Part shown: positions 1-30,760 of the stretch, one piece after another
Position numbering within the stretch: position 1 is the stretch's first letter
Layout: each line of letters begins with the position of its first letter
IMG/VR virus record: IMGVR_UViG_3300021368_001946
Location: 1 to 34,990 of that record
Reading direction: 5' to 3' (one strand)
Length of the DNA: 34,990 nucleotides
Origin: a virus
Notes under the pieces: model-generated
The model's input: only the letters and a program-made list of their open reading frames with translations
Told to the model about the DNA's origin: nothing
The model's database searches: none
Translations under genes and position numbers: made by a program

Positions 1-268
1 CGAGACGAGCACGAACACGAGCACAGCGCACCAGGTGTATTTACTCACACCCTCAGCTGATATCGATGTGACACTGCCAAGCGCGGCGACAGCTGGCTCA
101 GGTACACGCTACGACGTCAAGAACCTCGCTTCAGCGAACACTTTGACCTTAAAGGGTCAGACTGGCGATAATATTGACGGAGTGGCGCCAGCAACAGGCA
201 TCCCCATTGATACACAGTATGAGAGCTTAACTGTCATCTCAGATGGCTCTGAGTGGTTTATCATATGA
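1..268 (+). CDS. Tail fibre protein, 3' end (continues from 31401-34990)
   Basis: This is the C-terminal end of the tail fibre gene, split by the point where the circle was opened. The frame is open from base 2 and ends at TGA 266-268. Bases 10-135 repeat the last 126 bases of the window in the same frame, so the piece unique to this end is 136-268. Joined to 31401-34990 the protein is about 1240 residues. This part encodes a beta-rich, Thr/Ser/Gly-rich tip ending in SDGSEWFII, a style usual for phage fibre C-termini. The GTG at 35 is not a real start. The next gene starts inside the stop codon (ATGA). Confidence 0.85.
   Translation, partial: ETSTNTSTAHQVYLLTPSADIDVTLPSAATAGSGTRYDVKNLASANTLTLKGQTGDNIDGVAPATGIPIDTQYESLTVISDGSEWFII
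10..135. repeat. Left copy of 126-bp terminal direct repeat
   Basis: Bases 10-135 are identical to 34865-34990, an offset of 34855. The match breaks to the left: bases 1-9 read cgagacgag where the other end reads ctatacgat, three differences, each T in the right copy and G here. This shows that the ends join into a circle. It is more likely an assembly overlap than a physical terminal repeat, since it lies inside one gene. Confidence 0.9.
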
Positions 269-8491: not shown

Positions 8492-8735
8492 ATGCCTACT
8501 TGAGCGCTCATGGACTCGCACGCCGAGTAAGAAGCGGTCAAGCTATCGCGTTGAGGGCGGTGAGCATATCGTCCTAGCCACCGATGAGAAAGGTGATGAG
8601 GTCAACGTCATCCAGATGGATCACGTAGACGTAGAGGTCGGCGCTGATGTGATCACCACAGACGTGAGCGCTCATGGCTGGACTACTTCAGTGAGGTGGC
8701 GCGTGACTCTATGGGGTATGGAGCCAATAGCCTGA
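8466..8735 (+). CDS. Unknown protein between terminase subunits (89 aa)
   Basis: Not recognised. ATG 8466 is chosen because AGAGG lies seven bases upstream; an earlier in-frame ATG at 8430 lacks this. The N-terminal third is very basic (MTQKRLMTRCLLERSWTRTP), and the rest is acidic and strand-rich (QMDHVDVEVGADVITTDV). It overlaps the end of the small terminase gene and its stop overlaps the large terminase start (TGATG), so it is co-translated with the packaging genes. The basic head could contact DNA or terminase, which is speculation. Confidence 0.6.
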   Translation: MTQKRLMTRCLLERSWTRTPSKKRSSYRVEGGEHIVLATDEKGDEVNVIQMDHVDVEVGADVITTDVSAHGWTTSVRWRVTLWGMEPIA

Positions 8736-10102
8736 TGACGATCAACCTCAACGAGCTCCAGCACGGGATCATCTCACGCATAGCGCAAAATGAGCGGATC
8801 ATCGCGGCTCGTTGTGGTTGGGGATCTGGCAAGACCTCGGCGCTCGTCTTCGCTCTCCTCTTCGTGTCGAGGGTGAGGCCTAACACATCATCATTGCTCG
8901 TCACTGACACCAACCCACGCTATAACTCTGTGCTTATGCCTGAGATGGAGAAGTGGCTCTCACCGCTTGGTTGGACTTATAACCACACCCTCAGGCAGTG
9001 GAGCGCGCCGAATGGCTCAACAGTGTGGTGTCGCTCCTATTATCGACCAGGGACGAGAGACGCGACTCATAACCCTCTTGAGGGTCTCAACATCACGAGC
9101 GGCGTCTGTCTTATAGATGAGTGTCAGACGCTGAGCGCAGAGGTAGCCCACAAAGCGATGGGTCGATTGAGAGCAGGGCCGAGCCCCATTATGATCCTCG
9201 TGGGTCTGCCAGTGAGCGGCGCTTGGTGGTGTCACCTAGCTGAGGAGGCGAGTTGCTCACCGCTCCTCTTCACCTCATACGTCAACTCAGCCAACCTCAG
9301 CGCCGAGTGGTTTGAGGCTACTAAGCTGCTACCTGAGGCAGAGCGTGAGGCTATGGTGATGAACAAGCCACGGCCACCATCAGGGCTCATCTACTCCGAG
9401 TTCGACGAGTCACGCCACGTCATTAGCGGCTGGGAGTATAAGCCGACCATGAGCGGTCGAATCGCCATCGACTGGGGATTCAGGAAGCCATCAGTCTTGA
9501 TCATCGTACATGATGAGGAGCTCGGCGCTGATGTCATCTGCCACGAGATCAACCCCCAAGAGGTCACCACCTCTCAGCTTGCTACGCTTATCTTAGCTGT
9601 AGCTTGGCCGCGCTCGTTGAGGAGCTCCGCACCAGGTGATCGCATATGGCTTGATAATGGAGTGGCCGATAAAGCGGGTAGGGCTCGCAACGACCAGACA
9701 GGGCGCTCAGCATTCCGAGCGATGCGCGCCGCTCCACCAGATGGGCTCGGTATGCCGTTGAGGTCTAACACTGACCCAATCAGGACCGACATTCTCAACG
9801 GGGTGCAGCGTCTTAAGAGGGCCTTTGCTCGTGGTCAGTATCTCATCACCAAAGAAGTCTGGGACGGTGGCGAGCGCGCCACAGGTAACAGCATAAGAAA
9901 AGCTCTGATGTCCTACGGGTGGGACAACAAAGAACAACCTAAAAAGGATGGGCGTGAGGATCCGCTTGACGCTCTCCGCTATGACTGCATAACTTGGCGA
10001 TGGGCTGACTCAATCGTAGATCAACGCCAATATCAACCACGCTCCTCAGCCTCTAAAGATCGTAGAGTCAGAGTAGGTGGAGCCAAGAGGAGAAGCTTTT
10101 GA
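8735..10102 (+). CDS. terL: Terminase large subunit (455 aa)
   Basis: ATP-driven DNA packaging motor and nuclease. ATG 8735 forms a TGATG junction with the previous gene and has GGAG ten bases upstream; GTG 8696 and ATG 8711 are in-frame alternatives. Walker A is GWGSGKT at about 28-34, Walker B CLIDECQ with D128 and E129. The RNase H-like nuclease half shows its metal acidic residues in IAIDWG (D246), IWLDNG (D307) and EDPLDALRY (D409, D412). Length and order are normal for a siphovirus terminase. The next gene starts inside its stop codon. Confidence 0.95.
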   Translation: MTINLNELQHGIISRIAQNERIIAARCGWGSGKTSALVFALLFVSRVRPNTSSLLVTDTNPRYNSVLMPEMEKWLSPLGWTYNHTLRQWSAPNGSTVWCRSYYRPGTRDATHNPLEGLNITSGVCLIDECQTLSAEVAHKAMGRLRAGPSPIMILVGLPVSGAWWCHLAEEASCSPLLFTSYVNSANLSAEWFEATKLLPEAEREAMVMNKPRPPSGLIYSEFDESRHVISGWEYKPTMSGRIAIDWGFRKPSVLIIVHDEELGADVICHEINPQEVTTSQLATLILAVAWPRSLRSSAPGDRIWLDNGVADKAGRARNDQTGRSAFRAMRAAPPDGLGMPLRSNTDPIRTDILNGVQRLKRAFARGQYLITKEVWDGGERATGNSIRKALMSYGWDNKEQPKKDGREDPLDALRYDCITWRWADSIVDQRQYQPRSSASKDRRVRVGGAKRRSF

Positions 10103-10785
10103 GAATCTACAATGACGATGTAGGCGAGGTGAAATATGTGTCCTCGATGGGTAACGACTCAACGCCTGCTCATTCAGCGCGGGTGAGCTTCTATGATGAG
10201 AGCACATCCTCACCGCTGCAGATGACTGATCGAGACGTTAAGCTCATTCAATACCTAGCGAGGCATAACCACACCTCACCCTTTGAACATTGCGCAGCGA
10301 CTCTTAAGATCTCGTGTCCTCTCTTCGTTCGCTCTCAGATCATGCGTCATCGTACCTTCTCATTTAATGAGGTGAGCAGACGTTACACCTCAGATCGAAT
10401 CGCGTTCTGGATGCCTGAGGAGCTCCGCGAGCAACACCAGACCTCTCTCCAATGCTCGACCGATGAAGCGGTCCAAGAGTCTGATCATTGGCTGCAGTGT
10501 TGGGATCAACACCACGTTAACTGCGCCGCCTTCTATGAGTTGATGCTAGCCTCAGGTGTCGCTCGTGAGCAGGCGCGCGCTGTGCTGCCTCAGTCGCTCT
10601 ATACTCACTTTTGGATGTCAGGCAACCTCAACAACTGGGCTAAGTTTCTGAGGCTTCGACTTGACCCCCATAGTCAGCCTGAGACTCAGGCAGTAGCCAA
10701 GGCCGCGCGGTTTATCCTGATGAAGCACTTTCCTGTGTCGCTCGGCGCGCTCCTCGGTGATCTAGCCTACGATGAGTCACACTGA
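10099..10785 (+). CDS. thyX: Flavin-dependent thymidylate synthase (228 aa)
   Basis: Makes dTMP from dUMP using FAD, NADPH and methylenetetrahydrofolate, supplying thymidine for phage DNA. The family signature RHRxxSxNExSxRY is complete as RHRTFSFNEVSRRY at residues 83-96. ARVSFYD near 28 and RAVLPQSLYTHFWMSGNLN in the C-terminal third also fit. The start is an unusual TTG at 10099, supported by AGAGGAG upstream and a TTGA overlap with the terminase stop; the first in-frame ATG would remove the first strand of the fold. ThyX is common in phages but its place between terminase and portal is a moron-like position. Confidence 0.95.
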   Translation: MRIYNDDVGEVKYVSSMGNDSTPAHSARVSFYDESTSSPLQMTDRDVKLIQYLARHNHTSPFEHCAATLKISCPLFVRSQIMRHRTFSFNEVSRRYTSDRIAFWMPEELREQHQTSLQCSTDEAVQESDHWLQCWDQHHVNCAAFYELMLASGVAREQARAVLPQSLYTHFWMSGNLNNWAKFLRLRLDPHSQPETQAVAKAARFILMKHFPVSLGALLGDLAYDESH

Positions 10786-10940
10786 TGTGTGATGACCTCG
10801 ACGAGACCGTCTGCGCTAGGTGTGGTCGAGTAGACTGTGTATGTGAGGACGACGATGAGCATAGTGACCCTGATAGTGATCTCAATACTTCTAGTGAATG
10901 TGGTAGCCTCGATCTGGATAGTAGCATCACTGAGGGGTGA
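10785..10940 (+). CDS. Acidic cysteine-cluster micro-protein (51 aa)
   Basis: Begins at ATG 10785 in a TGATG junction with the thyX stop. Cys10, Cys13, Cys18 and Cys20 (VCARCGRVDCVCEDDDE) form a compact CxxC-x4-CxC cluster that could bind zinc; the rest is Asp/Ser-rich. Its second half overlaps the next micro-gene in another frame, so part of its acidic tail might be a by-product of that gene. Two cysteine pairs and stop-to-start coupling argue for a real product. Unknown function. Confidence 0.5.
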   Translation: MCDDLDETVCARCGRVDCVCEDDDEHSDPDSDLNTSSECGSLDLDSSITEG

Positions 10941-10968
10941 ACCATGGAGATCAGAGAACGACGACTAG
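10855..10968 (+). CDS. Single-helix membrane micro-protein (37 aa)
   Basis: ATG 10855 has a strong site, GAGGA five bases upstream. It encodes a hydrophobic helix (MSIVTLIVISILLVNVVASI onward, about 25 residues), followed by a charged tail ending SENDD. It overlaps the cysteine-cluster frame upstream and the first 25 bases of the cyclase gene downstream, each in a different frame. The ribosome site and clear membrane span make it credible. Its position suggests it works with the membrane-anchored cyclase or its neighbour. Confidence 0.5.
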   Translation: MSIVTLIVISILLVNVVASIWIVASLRGEPWRSENDD

Positions 10969-11723
10969 CCATAGTTCTTCTCGATCTCATCGGCTCAACT
11001 GCGTTCGTCTCCAAGGTGGGACCCATGAAGGCGGCGCGGTGGTTGCAGTACCATGATCGCCTCACTCGCTCTCTCATGCATCGTTTCAACGGTCGAGAGA
11101 TAGATAGGTCTGACGGCTTCCTCCTCAGCTTTGAATCTCCGATCAATGCGGTCAACTTCGCGCTGATCTACCAACGAGACATCCCACCTAAGATCAAGAT
11201 CAATACTCGTATCGGCCTACACGTCGGCATCGTCGCAGAGGTGACGCAGGATGAGCTTGACGTCTTGGTTGGCGCTAAGCCGGTCGAGCTTGAAGGCGTA
11301 GCTAAGAACATCGCCGCGCGCACTATGAGCTTATGTCAAGCTGGTCAAGTCCTCCTCACCGAAGAGGCGTTCAAACACATCAAGAGCAGGACGAACGGAT
11401 TCACACCGAAGGGAACACGTTATGTATGTGTGGGCCTCTATCGCTTCAAAGGTGTCCGAGAACCTCAGACGATATACGCAGTGGGTGTCAGGATTGAGTC
11501 TCTGCAGCCACCACCAGGTAGTGAGAAGGTTAAGCGACTCGGCGGCCCTAAGAAGGTCAAGAGCCGAGCGCGAGATAGAAGGATTAAAGAGTGGTTCTGG
11601 TGGATCATTATGAGGTGGGCTCTCATCAACCTCATTTACATTATCTGCGTCATTTGGCCTTGGCTCATGTATCATTTCCCTCTCGTCAACCGTTTACTAC
11701 AGTGGGTGATCAATGGAGACTGA
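10944..11723 (+). CDS. Class III nucleotide cyclase with C-terminal membrane anchor (259 aa)
   Basis: Predicted to make a cyclic nucleotide from an NTP at the membrane. Residues 8-183 are a class III cyclase domain: D14 in LLDLIGST and D57 in SDGFLLSF are the two metal aspartates, and N122 and R126 in VAKNIAART are the transition-state pair. QVLLTEEAF and RFKGVREPQTIYAV close the domain as in adenylate/guanylate cyclases with the TGDGFLATF-type core. The loop before D57 is one residue short and the base-selecting lysine is absent, with E115 at the usual Asp position, so the substrate cannot be predicted. Residues about 216-245 form one or two membrane helices (WFWWIIMRWALINLIYIICV). ATG 10944 has GAGGGG upstream. 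Cyclases are rare in phages. Confidence 0.85.
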   Translation: MEIRERRLAIVLLDLIGSTAFVSKVGPMKAARWLQYHDRLTRSLMHRFNGREIDRSDGFLLSFESPINAVNFALIYQRDIPPKIKINTRIGLHVGIVAEVTQDELDVLVGAKPVELEGVAKNIAARTMSLCQAGQVLLTEEAFKHIKSRTNGFTPKGTRYVCVGLYRFKGVREPQTIYAVGVRIESLQPPPGSEKVKRLGGPKKVKSRARDRRIKEWFWWIIMRWALINLIYIICVIWPWLMYHFPLVNRLLQWVINGD

Positions 11724-12189
11724 AAAGACAAGCAGAGAGATCACGAGTGAGATTAAGGCTAAGCGGGGGTGGTGGTTCTCGGTGTTCTTTATGATCCTCG
11801 TGGTGGGTCTCATCCTCTTCTTAACCTACGTTGAGATAGTGGATAAAAATCGCGATGTCCTCGTGGGGATACTCGGAATGATCACAGGCTCTATCAGCTC
11901 CATGATGGCTATCGCCTCAGGTCGTGACCCCTCAGAGGTCGAGGAGTTGAAGGACAAGCTCAGCGCCGCCAACGCTGACAGAGAGGCGCTCATCGCTCGG
12001 CTCAGAGATAGTCAGATTCAGATGCAGCTGCTAAGAGAGCAGATCAATGAGCTACAGGTCGCGGTGATAGATAAGCTCAGCATCTTTGCAGGTGAGAAGC
12101 CGATCAAGACCAAGGATGAGTCAGACGTTATCCTTCACCCAACAGTGGCTGAATGGTTGCCTGATACGAGACTAGACAAGAAGAGATAA
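11713..12189 (+). CDS. Two-helix membrane protein with coiled coil (158 aa)
   Basis: Starts inside the end of the cyclase gene (11-base overlap), so the two are translationally linked. A charged N-terminus leads to helices at about 20-41 (WWFSVFFMILVVGLILFLTY) and 48-69 (DVLVGILGMITGSISSMMAI), then a coiled coil at about 74-122 and a short acidic/basic tail. The two helices with a small-residue second helix resemble some phage holins, while pairing with a cyclase resembles signalling or effector modules. No cyclic-nucleotide-binding domain is visible. It ends before a 72-base gap carrying a regulatory hairpin. Confidence 0.65.
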   Translation: METEKTSREITSEIKAKRGWWFSVFFMILVVGLILFLTYVEIVDKNRDVLVGILGMITGSISSMMAIASGRDPSEVEELKDKLSAANADREALIARLRDSQIQMQLLREQINELQVAVIDKLSIFAGEKPIKTKDESDVILHPTVAEWLPDTRLDKKR

Positions 12190-12261: not shown

Positions 12262-13680
12262 ATGCAAGATCCAAGCGCAGAGCGTGACCCGCGACACATG
12301 AGGGCGCTCTCTCCTCGTTTTAGAACGCGAGGCATCACCGGCACTCAGATCAGCGGTGGCACCATCACCGGCAAAGAGCAGAATGCTCAACTCACTGGAC
12401 TCAACTGGGTTCAAGAGGCTGAGGAGATGCTCAGGACTGACCCTATTGTCAGACGCTCGTGGCACATGCTCAGGCAGACCCTGCTCTCTGCCTCTTGGCG
12501 ATTCGTGCCAGGGATTGAGAATGACCCTGTAGCGGAGGAGCTCGCGCGCTACGCCAATGAGTGTTGGGGCTTCGATGGCTATGCAGGTCAGATGACCATC
12601 TCTTGGGAAGATCAGCTAGCCTACCTCTTTGAGTTCGTCCCGTTGGGTTATCGATACGCCGAAGAGATCTATAAGGTATGTCCCGACTCAGAGGGTAAGG
12701 TCAGGGTATGGTTGAGCCATTACGCCGACCGAGAGCCAAGCGCTCACCAAAAGTGGCTATCACGAGACGCTCAGCAGCTCGACGGAGTGATACAGAACAC
12801 AGTAGGCATCACCTACACTCCTGAGCCGATCCCTGCTAACAAGCTCTTGCTCTTGACCCTCAATAAGACTGGCTCTAACTTTGAGGGCGTGGGGATGCTT
12901 CGGCCTGTGTGGTGGTGGTGGCGTACTAAGCAGCGGGTGAGTAACCTGATGTGTGTTGGCCTCGACCGTTGGGCGGTGCCTACGCCTAAGGTGGTGGTAG
13001 ACCGCGCAAGCGCTGAGAGTATCGGCCTAAGTGATGGTGACATCGACGCCATGATCAACGACGCAGAGGCTCAGGCTCAGGCTTTCGTCTCGGCTGAGCA
13101 GAGCTATTTGGTTGAGAATCCCGCCGTTAAGTTTGAGACCTATGTGGCCACACCTAACGTCTACGCAGATGGCCCCATCAATATTATTACTAAGTGTGAT
13201 TCACAGATAGCCGCTGCTTTCCTCTCTCAGTTCGCTGACCTCGGCAACACCGAGACGGGCGCTCGATCTGTTGGTGAGATTCATCATATGGTCTTCAGGC
13301 GCGCGGCTATCAATCTATGTGATGTGATCGCCTCGGCTGTGTCAGGTGTTGATCGTCGAGGAGCTGGGACCATCGGCCGCCTCATCAGGTGGAACTATGG
13401 AGCGGTCGATCCTTCAAAGCTGCCTAAGCTTACTCACTCAGGGCTCGATACTGATGATCTCGCTGAGTCTCTCGGTGCTCTCCCTGGTCTTGTTCAAGCT
13501 GGCCTGATCACTCCTGACGATGAGCTAGAGCGAGCCATCAGGGATCGACTCGGCGCGGGTGAGCTCCCTGAAGATGCTCAGCGCTCACCGCTCTCTAGGA
13601 TCTCATCAGCTGGCGCGGGTGGTGGTGTATCAGCTCTCACTGAGCAGCTCATCAGGAGGCGTCGAGATGGCAAAGCGTAA
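12262..13680 (+). CDS. Portal protein, Mu gp29-like (DUF935-type) (472 aa)
   Basis: Forms the dodecameric ring at the capsid vertex through which DNA passes. The protein has the layout of the DUF935/Mu gp29 group: DPIVRRSWHMLRQTLLSASW near residues 60-80, an FEFVPLGYRYAEEIYK segment around 115-130, and GVGMLRPVWWWWRTKQRVSN around 210-230, then a C-terminal helical and Gly/Arg-rich tail. Length is normal. It follows the terminase block and precedes the protease/scaffold and capsid genes, matching its role. The last 14 bases overlap the next gene. Confidence 0.85.
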   Translation: MQDPSAERDPRHMRALSPRFRTRGITGTQISGGTITGKEQNAQLTGLNWVQEAEEMLRTDPIVRRSWHMLRQTLLSASWRFVPGIENDPVAEELARYANECWGFDGYAGQMTISWEDQLAYLFEFVPLGYRYAEEIYKVCPDSEGKVRVWLSHYADREPSAHQKWLSRDAQQLDGVIQNTVGITYTPEPIPANKLLLLTLNKTGSNFEGVGMLRPVWWWWRTKQRVSNLMCVGLDRWAVPTPKVVVDRASAESIGLSDGDIDAMINDAEAQAQAFVSAEQSYLVENPAVKFETYVATPNVYADGPINIITKCDSQIAAAFLSQFADLGNTETGARSVGEIHHMVFRRAAINLCDVIASAVSGVDRRGAGTIGRLIRWNYGAVDPSKLPKLTHSGLDTDDLAESLGALPGLVQAGLITPDDELERAIRDRLGAGELPEDAQRSPLSRISSAGAGGGVSALTEQLIRRRRDGKA

Positions 13681-30000: not shown

Positions 30001-30107
30001 AGCCGACCACATACGCCAACGCGAGCGCAACCCATAGAAGTGATGCCTACCTTGCTAATAATAATGATATCATCAACACAACCGTCAACGCGCAGGAGTA
30101 CAGCTGA
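27027..30107 (+). CDS. Large tail-tip/hub protein (1026 aa)
   Basis: Largest protein of the tip after the fibre; by size and order the likely central hub or tail-associated protein (lambda gpJ position), which contacts the tape measure and fibre. Start has AGAGGTG upstream and an ATGA overlap. N-terminus includes ASIDPSGGVATYGAVSVTLG and RGVGNTPQQTHS, then SIMPLTALIDTDLSDKG, a pattern seen in hub proteins of several siphoviruses; the middle is strand-rich. C-terminal third includes NLRDTIDSMLRMMGAVLVMK and a terminal Ig-like stretch. No peptidase motif noticed. Confidence 0.65.
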   Translation: MSVTSQHGRRVFALEVAGLPQRYHSHPPPSSSNLDANITTGIAYTDIESIVAVGSFSASIDPSGGVATYGAVSVTLGIDRRRGGANDPGVIFGRCGARSASTRARLTESSDRTDTTLKVDTDFSSETFPKLYHIGAETVRAASATSTVLTVTRGVGNTPQQTHSIDLEGSFVPEVTTEITTFRGRRARLYMAHRYANGNTSDYVEVINGFIESSPRVEEGDEISLSIMPLTALIDTDLSDKGINQTGLLQGHHYYDGVNGSVLEYALSLQLDQDRREVIVTPDTSAAITANTFQVSVERRRGFSDLFDDFDVSLPQGPDGDDYIREHPRYPKLRRSQDQSFEVEGVFPNTITYDGAIPGYVINADGGLTNALNAAEITASETLRINLPMAEIKQHSLGSGEVKKWPDVINDTLESDGPSSTQGLSGGFGRWRMNQGSAIRAEKLSASGFACYIYLWNTLERWIQLRWDIYGTRSPLCWKDSGTSRPLDTLSRLSYPLDLGNGDDPYPERFDVDTPQQLKILKVDAVERTGVAKIRQMPTAYYQHYESAILVEGSLGLPTSATAGEFYYVTVQHYDRNLEDTKRQVFKVTHETVATFGGSDVGYLLHIADSNVHSQNSSFGDYPDQERTLIFRGGQLESERPGTVLLKLLESGGGDEVNGDYDVLSLGLNISSDDIDEASFLELDATATLSLTSSYAGDGMNLRDTIDSMLRMMGAVLVMKRDASTGRSKISLVALGNERPDAAEGTISAGEWLSDPPPRWGIHEDIVTQILFSYDYDPSEGAYQSEVLYNNQEAINRYGGERSKITLTLPGVSSDQFGRGAGDAFGYFTPTASRIFNLLANPLRTWSGAVGTGRSVYFDVGTYLTVNSPHLRGYSDTYGVTDGVGMIRAIRQELMSEGCDIELIVTGISPVNWNSAARVTAITTTTVTVATDDFSGSDVDDVSFFKAGDVVDYLPKGNHDGAITGLEIDSITGNVIAFTAAHGIASINGTLEPTTYANASATHRSDAYLANNNDIINTTVNAQEYS

Positions 30108-30760
30108 TGCCTACTAAAGCAGACCTTGAAGTCACTATCTCAGAACTTGAACACGACGTAAGGCGGCTCTCTCGCTCACTTGGTCAGGCGAAGCTTGATC
30201 TTCAGGAGCTCCCTGAGCGCCTCGTCAACTACCCTCGACCGCAGCGCAGTGAGCAGAGCTCAGTTGCTATCGACCGCGCTCTGGCTGAGTGGTCATCGAT
30301 GGTCGAGGAGCCTGACCAACGGATCAATACATACATCCGCAGCATGGAGGGCATCGGCTGGACGTGGGAGAAGGAGTACGTCAAGAATGGTCAGTTCGCT
30401 TGGTGCGGCGCTTTCGCCGCATTCTGTTACACGGCGGTGGCCTTCAAGACTCGTCAAAAGATCTTCCCTTCATGTTATCGCCTCTATTCTAATTGGTCAC
30501 AGACCTCACGAAGAATCGAGCCACGTGACATGCTCCCTGGTGACATCGTTGTCGTGTACAGCTCAGCGCGCGCCACATGGGGTGACCACATCACGCTCTG
30601 TCGAGTGGCTCCCATTGATGGCAAGTTCGAGACCATCGAGGGCAATGCCCACGGCACTCTAGGAGATGGCTCACATGGTGAGGGCGTCATCGCTCGCGAG
30701 CGTAGCCTTGATGAGGTGGCTTATGTCTACCGTCTACTCGCTGAGGACTTCGATGAGTGA
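30107..30760 (+). CDS. Endolysin, CHAP-like peptidase/amidase (217 aa)
   Basis: Cuts peptidoglycan for lysis. ATG 30107 overlaps the hub stop (TGATG) with AGGAG upstream. Residues 1-35 form a coiled coil. The catalytic domain, about 60-215, has the nucleophile C100 in FAWCGAFAAFC, H161 in WGDHITLCR, and an EGNAHG strand near 178-183 as the third site, plus LPGDIVVV before the His. This C-H-E/N order is that of CHAP/NlpC-P60-type phage enzymes. No signal peptide, so it depends on the holin encoded next. Confidence 0.85.
   Translation: MPTKADLEVTISELEHDVRRLSRSLGQAKLDLQELPERLVNYPRPQRSEQSSVAIDRALAEWSSMVEEPDQRINTYIRSMEGIGWTWEKEYVKNGQFAWCGAFAAFCYTAVAFKTRQKIFPSCYRLYSNWSQTSRRIEPRDMLPGDIVVVYSSARATWGDHITLCRVAPIDGKFETIEGNAHGTLGDGSHGEGVIARERSLDEVAYVYRLLAEDFDE

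Follow-up and report, generated by a model that had tools for sequence, protein, structure and literature searches.

A phage class III nucleotide cyclase and its two-helix membrane partner, kept or lost together, as a possible signalling unit at the host membrane

The DNA analysed here (the window) is the whole 34,990-base stretch of the IMG/VR virus record IMGVR_UViG_3300021368_001946. Between its terminase and portal genes lies a gene for a class III nucleotide cyclase, followed by g4, a gene for a small protein with two predicted transmembrane helices (2TM) and a coiled coil. These two genes appear to be kept or lost as a unit, and the pair may serve the phage as a signalling switch of its own at the host membrane. 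The order in the window is terminase large subunit, thyX, Cys-rich microprotein, one-helix frame, cyclase, g4, a gap of 72 nucleotides (nt) and the portal gene, which starts at 12262. An earlier note on this DNA had described four overlapping frames after thyX, with every junction overlapping, and these are indeed present. The features, the pair first, are as follows.

10944..11723, + strand: class III nucleotide cyclase, 259 amino acids, assigned by profile matches, fold and catalytic residues
11713..12189, + strand: g4, putative 2TM and coiled-coil partner, 158 amino acids, assigned by hydropathy, a low-confidence model and adjacency to the cyclase
8696..10102, + strand: terminase large subunit (phrog_5653, E 9.6e-6), which anchors the left side of the site in this group of phages
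10099..10785, + strand: thyX, flavin-dependent thymidylate synthase (Pfam Thy1, E 3e-46), a neighbour outside the pair
10785..10940, + strand: Cys-rich microprotein, 51 amino acids, with a CxxC...CxC core, an accessory third gene
10855..10968, + strand: one-helix membrane frame, 37 amino acids, read in +1 across the tail of the Cys-rich gene and the start of the cyclase
12262..13680, + strand: portal protein (Portal_Mu, E 1.1e-23), right anchor of the site

The assignment of a membrane-anchored class III cyclase, first proposed from the letters alone, was borne out by profile, fold and hydropathy together. The protein scores 22.8 bits against Pfam Guanylate_cyc (cut-off 21.9) and matches the first quarter of NCBIfam TIGR04510 (E 6.9e-46, 157 bits, profile positions 7-204 of 814), a profile matched at E <= 0.001 by all 39 diverse phage cyclases compared with it. 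Its nearest solved sequence is Rv1900c, or LipJ (E 2.1e-10). A single-chain AlphaFold2 model built from 39 phage sequences reached a mean predicted local distance difference test score (pLDDT) of 85 and a predicted template modelling score (pTM) of 0.75, and its fold is that of a class III cyclase, as the earlier note had expected. In VIA-align the model was superposed on Rv1900c (1ybt_B) with Z 23.8 and a root-mean-square deviation of 1.8 over 171 residues at about 25% identity, and on Ma1120 with Z about 22; Foldseek matched it to Ma1120 at 7.6e-13. The two aspartates predicted to bind metal, D14 and D57, on whose conservation the first assignment hung, are invariant together with the transition-state pair N122 and R126 in 76 of 76 distinct complete phage homologues, these being the complete ones out of 126 loci with a match.

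The predicted layout is a catalytic domain at about 5-183, a conserved basic linker at 184-213 and a C-terminal membrane helix at about 219-248. The last is covered by two overlapping hydropathy windows, and a third hydrophobic window (8-26) lies inside the catalytic core. The median ratio of nonsynonymous to synonymous substitution rates (dN/dS) is 0.078 for the catalytic part and 0.282 for the linker and membrane part.

The partner, g4, has two strongly hydrophobic helices at 22-40 and 49-67, followed by a predicted coiled coil at about 73-125 that forms a long helix in an all-helical, low-confidence model (pLDDT 67.9, pTM 0.27). The second membrane helix is rich in Gly, Ser and Thr, and this helix and the segment after it are almost invariant. 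The median dN/dS of g4 is 0.079, so that it is almost as constrained as the portal (0.066). Searches for g4 found none among 50,697 deposited phage records, in the sequence stretches of 19 GTDB relatives or in five whole genomes with related cyclases, nor in 398 genomes of one phylum, the last a search run without a known positive, whose empty result shows nothing by itself.

The pairing of the two genes was followed with the portal as bait, which avoids the bias of a cyclase-led search. Among the 77 distinct loci found in this way, 61 have both genes, three have neither (L182, L185 and L245) and the remaining 13 run into a contig end. Fourteen had been set aside as cut at first, and L245 was then read by hand and found to lack both. 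Four of the 13 cut loci show g4 only, with the contig starting there. None of the 64 uncut portal-found loci has one gene without the other. In a second set, of 85 loci with terminase and portal both present (part of 115 distinct loci), 83 have both genes and two have neither; as some of these loci were themselves found through the pair, the set is biased, and the portal-found set is the more trustworthy. The arrangement is equally constant: in all 238 locus pairs, a count without deduplication, g4 follows the cyclase downstream on its strand, and in all 96 distinct pairs the two genes share a strand. A single pair has a long gap, of 722 nt. It is that of L072/L166, which are one contig, and the gap contains a gene for a D12-type adenine DNA methyltransferase (L072 6826-7539), both genes of the pair being kept.

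A natural loss of the pair can be read in L182. When compared with L180, to which it is 85-92% identical on both flanks, about 1,320 nt are replaced by 24 nt, and the deletion (L182 6808-6833) runs from the ninth cyclase codon to beyond g4. Going by this one assembled contig, the pair seems to be dispensable. Since adjacent genes can fall to one deletion, the three joint absences are modest evidence by themselves; that neither gene was missing singly in any of the 64 loci is the stronger evidence.

The four frames had been taken as one block that might recur in other phages. What recurs is the cyclase and g4, which form the conserved core; the full block does not travel as a unit, the Cys-rich gene standing before the cyclase in 25 of 129 loci only. 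In all, 129 distinct cyclase loci were read; the scans keep the best 80 of 112, 502, 417 and 245 relatives, more distant ones falling outside the counts. The last scan, led by a distant member, found the 245 relatives in IMG/VR. Of its 48 newly fetched loci, some of them longer pieces of contigs seen before, 47 have g4 adjoining the cyclase and one ends within the cyclase gene.

The pair is also present in eight contigs of 38 to 312 kb (L064, L246, L247, L248, L253, L278, L282 and L284) with no match to the window's portal in a search that does recover the portal in the window. They are not eight independent phage types, as L278 and L282 are alike locally and L246, L248 and L253 share neighbours. 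Their gene neighbourhoods are unlike that of the window, one group having PhoH and DNA methylase genes nearby, and their cyclases are interleaved in the tree with those of the 36-kb group, several forks being open. The differing neighbourhoods and the interleaved tree suggest that the pair has probably moved between phage backbones. A PF03237 terminase search of the larger contigs gave one weak match under the cut-off in 9 records, and a T4-portal family search of them, run without a positive control, gave none. L247 is a virus-classed contig of 312 kb, so that the carriers span from about 36 kb to more than 300 kb; ahead of its pair is a small frame that contains Cys, begins in a signal-like way and differs from the other Cys-rich genes.

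In the 50,697 deposited phage records the cyclase had one match, MT838110 (L017, 'Bacteriophage sp.'), a record that looks mislabelled and was dropped as a relative because no phage genes could be seen by eye in the stretch. That stretch resembles a piece of an actinobacterial chromosome, with a cyclase-ATPase regulator, a redox enzyme and TetR-like frames, again by eye. Plasmid matches were found in 101 records, none over more than 80% of the query and with a best identity of 32% among the matches listed. Searches of the open-licence PMC literature, which leaves most subscription papers uncovered, showed no report of a phage-encoded class III cyclase or of a cyclase-2TM pair.

As to descent, in a tree of 43 catalytic domains (midpoint-rooted for drawing only) all 25 phage sequences fall together (100/100) at the end of a long branch, and this phage group is joined by proteins of Tahibacter and Rudaea (95/94), themselves full TIGR04510 members (794 and 842 bits). 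The pattern looks like a single acquisition, in which a cellular catalytic domain was taken up without the tetratricopeptide repeat (TPR) part. It was earlier suggested that a missing base-selecting lysine and a loop one residue short before D57 might allow an unusual product. Cellular relatives were drawn from 19 GTDB loci, of which 14 were translated, and the residue counts are given without L147 and four unread loci. The loop segment of the phage enzyme, EIDRSDG, has the form EID[K/R][S/T]DG in 13 of the 14 translated relatives, the fourteenth (L147) being LipJ-like with a longer loop. Loop sharing is partly by construction, as several of the 13 carry the scan pattern GREIDRSD itself; L129, L131-L133 and L142 have EIDKTDG and so were not retrieved through that pattern. 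The residue two before D57 is basic, R55 in the window and K or R in these cellular relatives.

When aligned with Rv1900c, D54 stands opposite Asn, E115 opposite Asp and N122 opposite His, and the residues at the base-selecting positions of the window cyclase, D54 or R55 together with E115, are common to the cellular relatives. The short loop, shared with 13 of the 14 relatives, and the missing lysine are thus ancestral, and they give no argument for an unusual product; cyclic AMP (cAMP) is the default guess. Position 122 is Asn in the phages and Pro (9), Ala (2), Ser (1) or His (1) in 13 cellular relatives; Ma1120, with Ala at the matching position, is reported to be an active cyclase (PMC4215837). 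In one Rubrivivax metagenome-assembled genome, at least five large regulators carry the same cyclase subtype N-terminally (L130, L134, L137-L139).

The small genes before the cyclase were also followed. The first base of the Cys-rich frame overlaps the thyX stop by one base. A Cys-rich small frame directly precedes the cyclase in 25 of the 129 loci, some of which are cut upstream, vs 3 of 1,058 random windows, and the 25 include three contigs of 73-85 kb without the window's portal. A T[IVL]CxxC core is present in 24 of the 25, the exception being L278. Some phages thus have the Cys-rich microprotein as a genuine third gene. Its second Cys cluster is lost in the window and in seven close relatives. 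Over these eight close sequences the first and second halves of the Cys-rich gene have dN/dS values of 0.195 and 3.6, and the value of 0.41 for the one-helix frame points to moderate purifying selection on the latter. That frame starts at ATG 10855 or GTG 10837 and ends at 10968. When membrane-like hydropathy was defined as 1.6 or more over 19 residues, the +1 frame reached it in 22 of 24 Cys-rich loci (L278, with another type of Cys frame, was left out) and the +2 frame in none. A Cys codon becomes a Val or Ala codon when read in +1, so that an intact Cys tail in part brings a hydrophobic +1 frame with it automatically; that this frame is kept in the window's relatives despite the lost tail suggests a real overprinted gene, although for so short a stretch this is suggestive only. 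Further upstream, close relatives have two extra small genes between terminase and thyX (L002 6808-7246, L003 2824-3256), one of those in L002 being DUF3310, and the window is without them.

The earlier note had read the cyclase as part of a phage signalling module, and with its intact catalytic residues and membrane anchor this is still a plausible reading. The form of it that we favour, at a probability of roughly 0.45, is a two-gene, phage-owned membrane signalling unit made of an active homodimeric class III cyclase and a 2TM protein that depends on it. It draws on the predicted fold, the catalytic residues, the hydrophobic helices, the pairing and joint absence of the genes and their occurrence on several phage backbones. 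In such a unit the cyclase would be active in the cell as a homodimer that its C-terminal helix anchors in the inner membrane. The g4 product would be a two-helix membrane protein with a coiled coil on the cytoplasmic side; it would oligomerise, be in physical or signalling contact with the cyclase and work only together with it. The cyclic nucleotide, or the cyclase itself, would set the state of g4, and g4 as the output would change membrane integrity or conductance to the benefit of the phage vs a competing phage or a host response.

An output of the Pycsar or Panoptes kind would be the likeliest of the detailed readings, if weakly supported, since no ligand-binding domain was recognised in g4 and near-fixation of the pair would suit a housekeeping function in infection equally well. 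In its most specific version the cyclase would keep a 2TM toxin or channel in check (or open it), so that a rival phage or a host countermeasure that disturbs the cyclic nucleotide would trigger membrane collapse; we hold this version tentatively and consider it rather unlikely as it stands.

Several results weigh against a signalling unit with g4 as its output. No ligand- or cyclic-nucleotide-binding domain was found among the Pfam matches of g4, unlike in PycTM or 2TM-beta, and a search of its low-confidence model against the PDB gave no match at E <= 0.001. A weak SLATT profile match (27 of 28 members, best E 3.4e-5) speaks for such an output, but membership of that family is not established, as the window protein scores 21.1 bits against a cut-off of 26.5 (SLATT_fungal) and an unrelated membrane family, AbrB, matches g4 as often (28 of 28 members). 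The distances of cyclase and g4 correlate (Spearman) at 0.59, no higher than those of core genes (cyclase-terminase 0.62, portal-terminase 0.61), so co-evolution of the two beyond shared descent was not supported. Finally, a pair so nearly fixed in one group of phages (61 of 64) looks less like defence cargo than like a core function.

The same near-fixation, together with the lack of a recognised ligand-binding domain, suits the main alternative, in which g4 is a regulatory or assembly subunit and the complex raises host cAMP (or cyclic GMP), an auxiliary function beside thyX and a dCMP (deoxycytidine monophosphate) deaminase. Indeed, the pair often stands beside genes of nucleotide metabolism: between terminase and cyclase thyX is present in 43 of 96 loci, 21 of them with a deaminase too (Pfam E 6.8e-18). 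Yet 53 of the 96 loci have neither, the gene neighbourhood in other phages differs, and no host is known, so that there is no host cyclic-nucleotide pathway to point to; we regard this explanation as unlikely, if the most serious of the rivals. A function in lysis timing, with g4 as a holin-like pore opened by the cyclase product, would fit the two hydrophobic helices, the second of them rich in Gly, Ser and Thr, and a site adjoining packaging and head genes. The lysis genes, however, seem to lie elsewhere in the window, where small membrane frames that are possibly lysis genes cluster at 1732-2885, the first of them weakly spanin-like (phrog_1026, E 0.0095), and an endolysin-like protein (30107-30760) stands beside a small hydrophobic frame. 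As three contigs are also without the pair, we find this explanation improbable.

Class III domains without activity exist, and the cyclase domain could have been kept for a non-enzymatic, structural role. All four catalytic positions are invariant in the 76 homologues, and the phages have N122 although none of the 13 cellular relatives has Asn there, which argues that the site is not decaying and makes such a role very improbable. Least probable of all is a true phage-borne Pycsar system. PycC is also class III-like, and Pycsar too joins a cyclase and a membrane protein in adjacent genes, but the PADLOC PycC model matched at only E 0.044 (11.3 bits) and the effector domain expected of such a system was not found in g4; membership was therefore rejected.

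Set beside known systems, the phage cyclase has its closest cellular counterpart in TIGR04510, the 'putative peptide modification system cyclase' of Tahibacter, Rudaea and relatives, its nearest cellular branch in the tree. The two have in common the catalytic domain, the short EID[K/R][S/T]DG loop, a GAKxxE segment and, in most members, a PP...K[A/S]xR linker after the domain. The cellular members continue into further domains (TPR in L131, PEGA in L129), whereas the phage cyclase has Asn122 and a separate 2TM partner, and scores 157 of the 400 bits asked of a full-length member. The closest solved folds are the mycobacterial Rv1900c and Ma1120. Rv1900c likewise has no Lys at the base-selecting place, with Asn opposite D54; its loop is one residue longer than the phage loop, and it is named as a lipase fusion. 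We know of no 2TM partner for either. SLATT 2TM effectors likewise have two helices and then a further helix, and show weak profile similarity to g4; no pairing of them with a class III cyclase is known to us.

In conflicts between phages and hosts, cyclic-nucleotide signalling is, to our knowledge, a weapon of the host, and one that phages evade. In the present case the owners of a cyclase with an intact active site and of its membrane partner seem to be phages, and both genes are under strong selection (median dN/dS about 0.08). If the enzyme is active, its product and the function of the 2TM protein become the questions. Like the present pair, Pycsar (PycC with PycTM or PycTIR) joins a cyclase and a second protein from two adjacent genes; it differs in that its effector has a cyclic-nucleotide-binding domain, and carriage by phages is a feature of the present pair. 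The base-pocket residues of PycC are Y50, D94 and R97 or F60, K104 and F109, as reported in PMC11224242. Panoptes (mCpol and 2TM-beta) likewise pairs a small cyclase with a 2TM protein, and its cyclase is described as keeping the membrane protein in check (PMC12657230). The enzyme mCpol is Cas10-like and makes cyclic di-AMP, which 2TM-beta senses by a beta-barrel; the phage enzyme is class III and thus no mCpol, and the low-confidence g4 model has no such barrel. If the version in which the cyclase keeps a 2TM toxin or channel in check (or opens it) is true, the pair would be to phages what Pycsar and Panoptes are to their bearers, a widespread switch assembled from parts unrelated to theirs and carried across phages of very different size.

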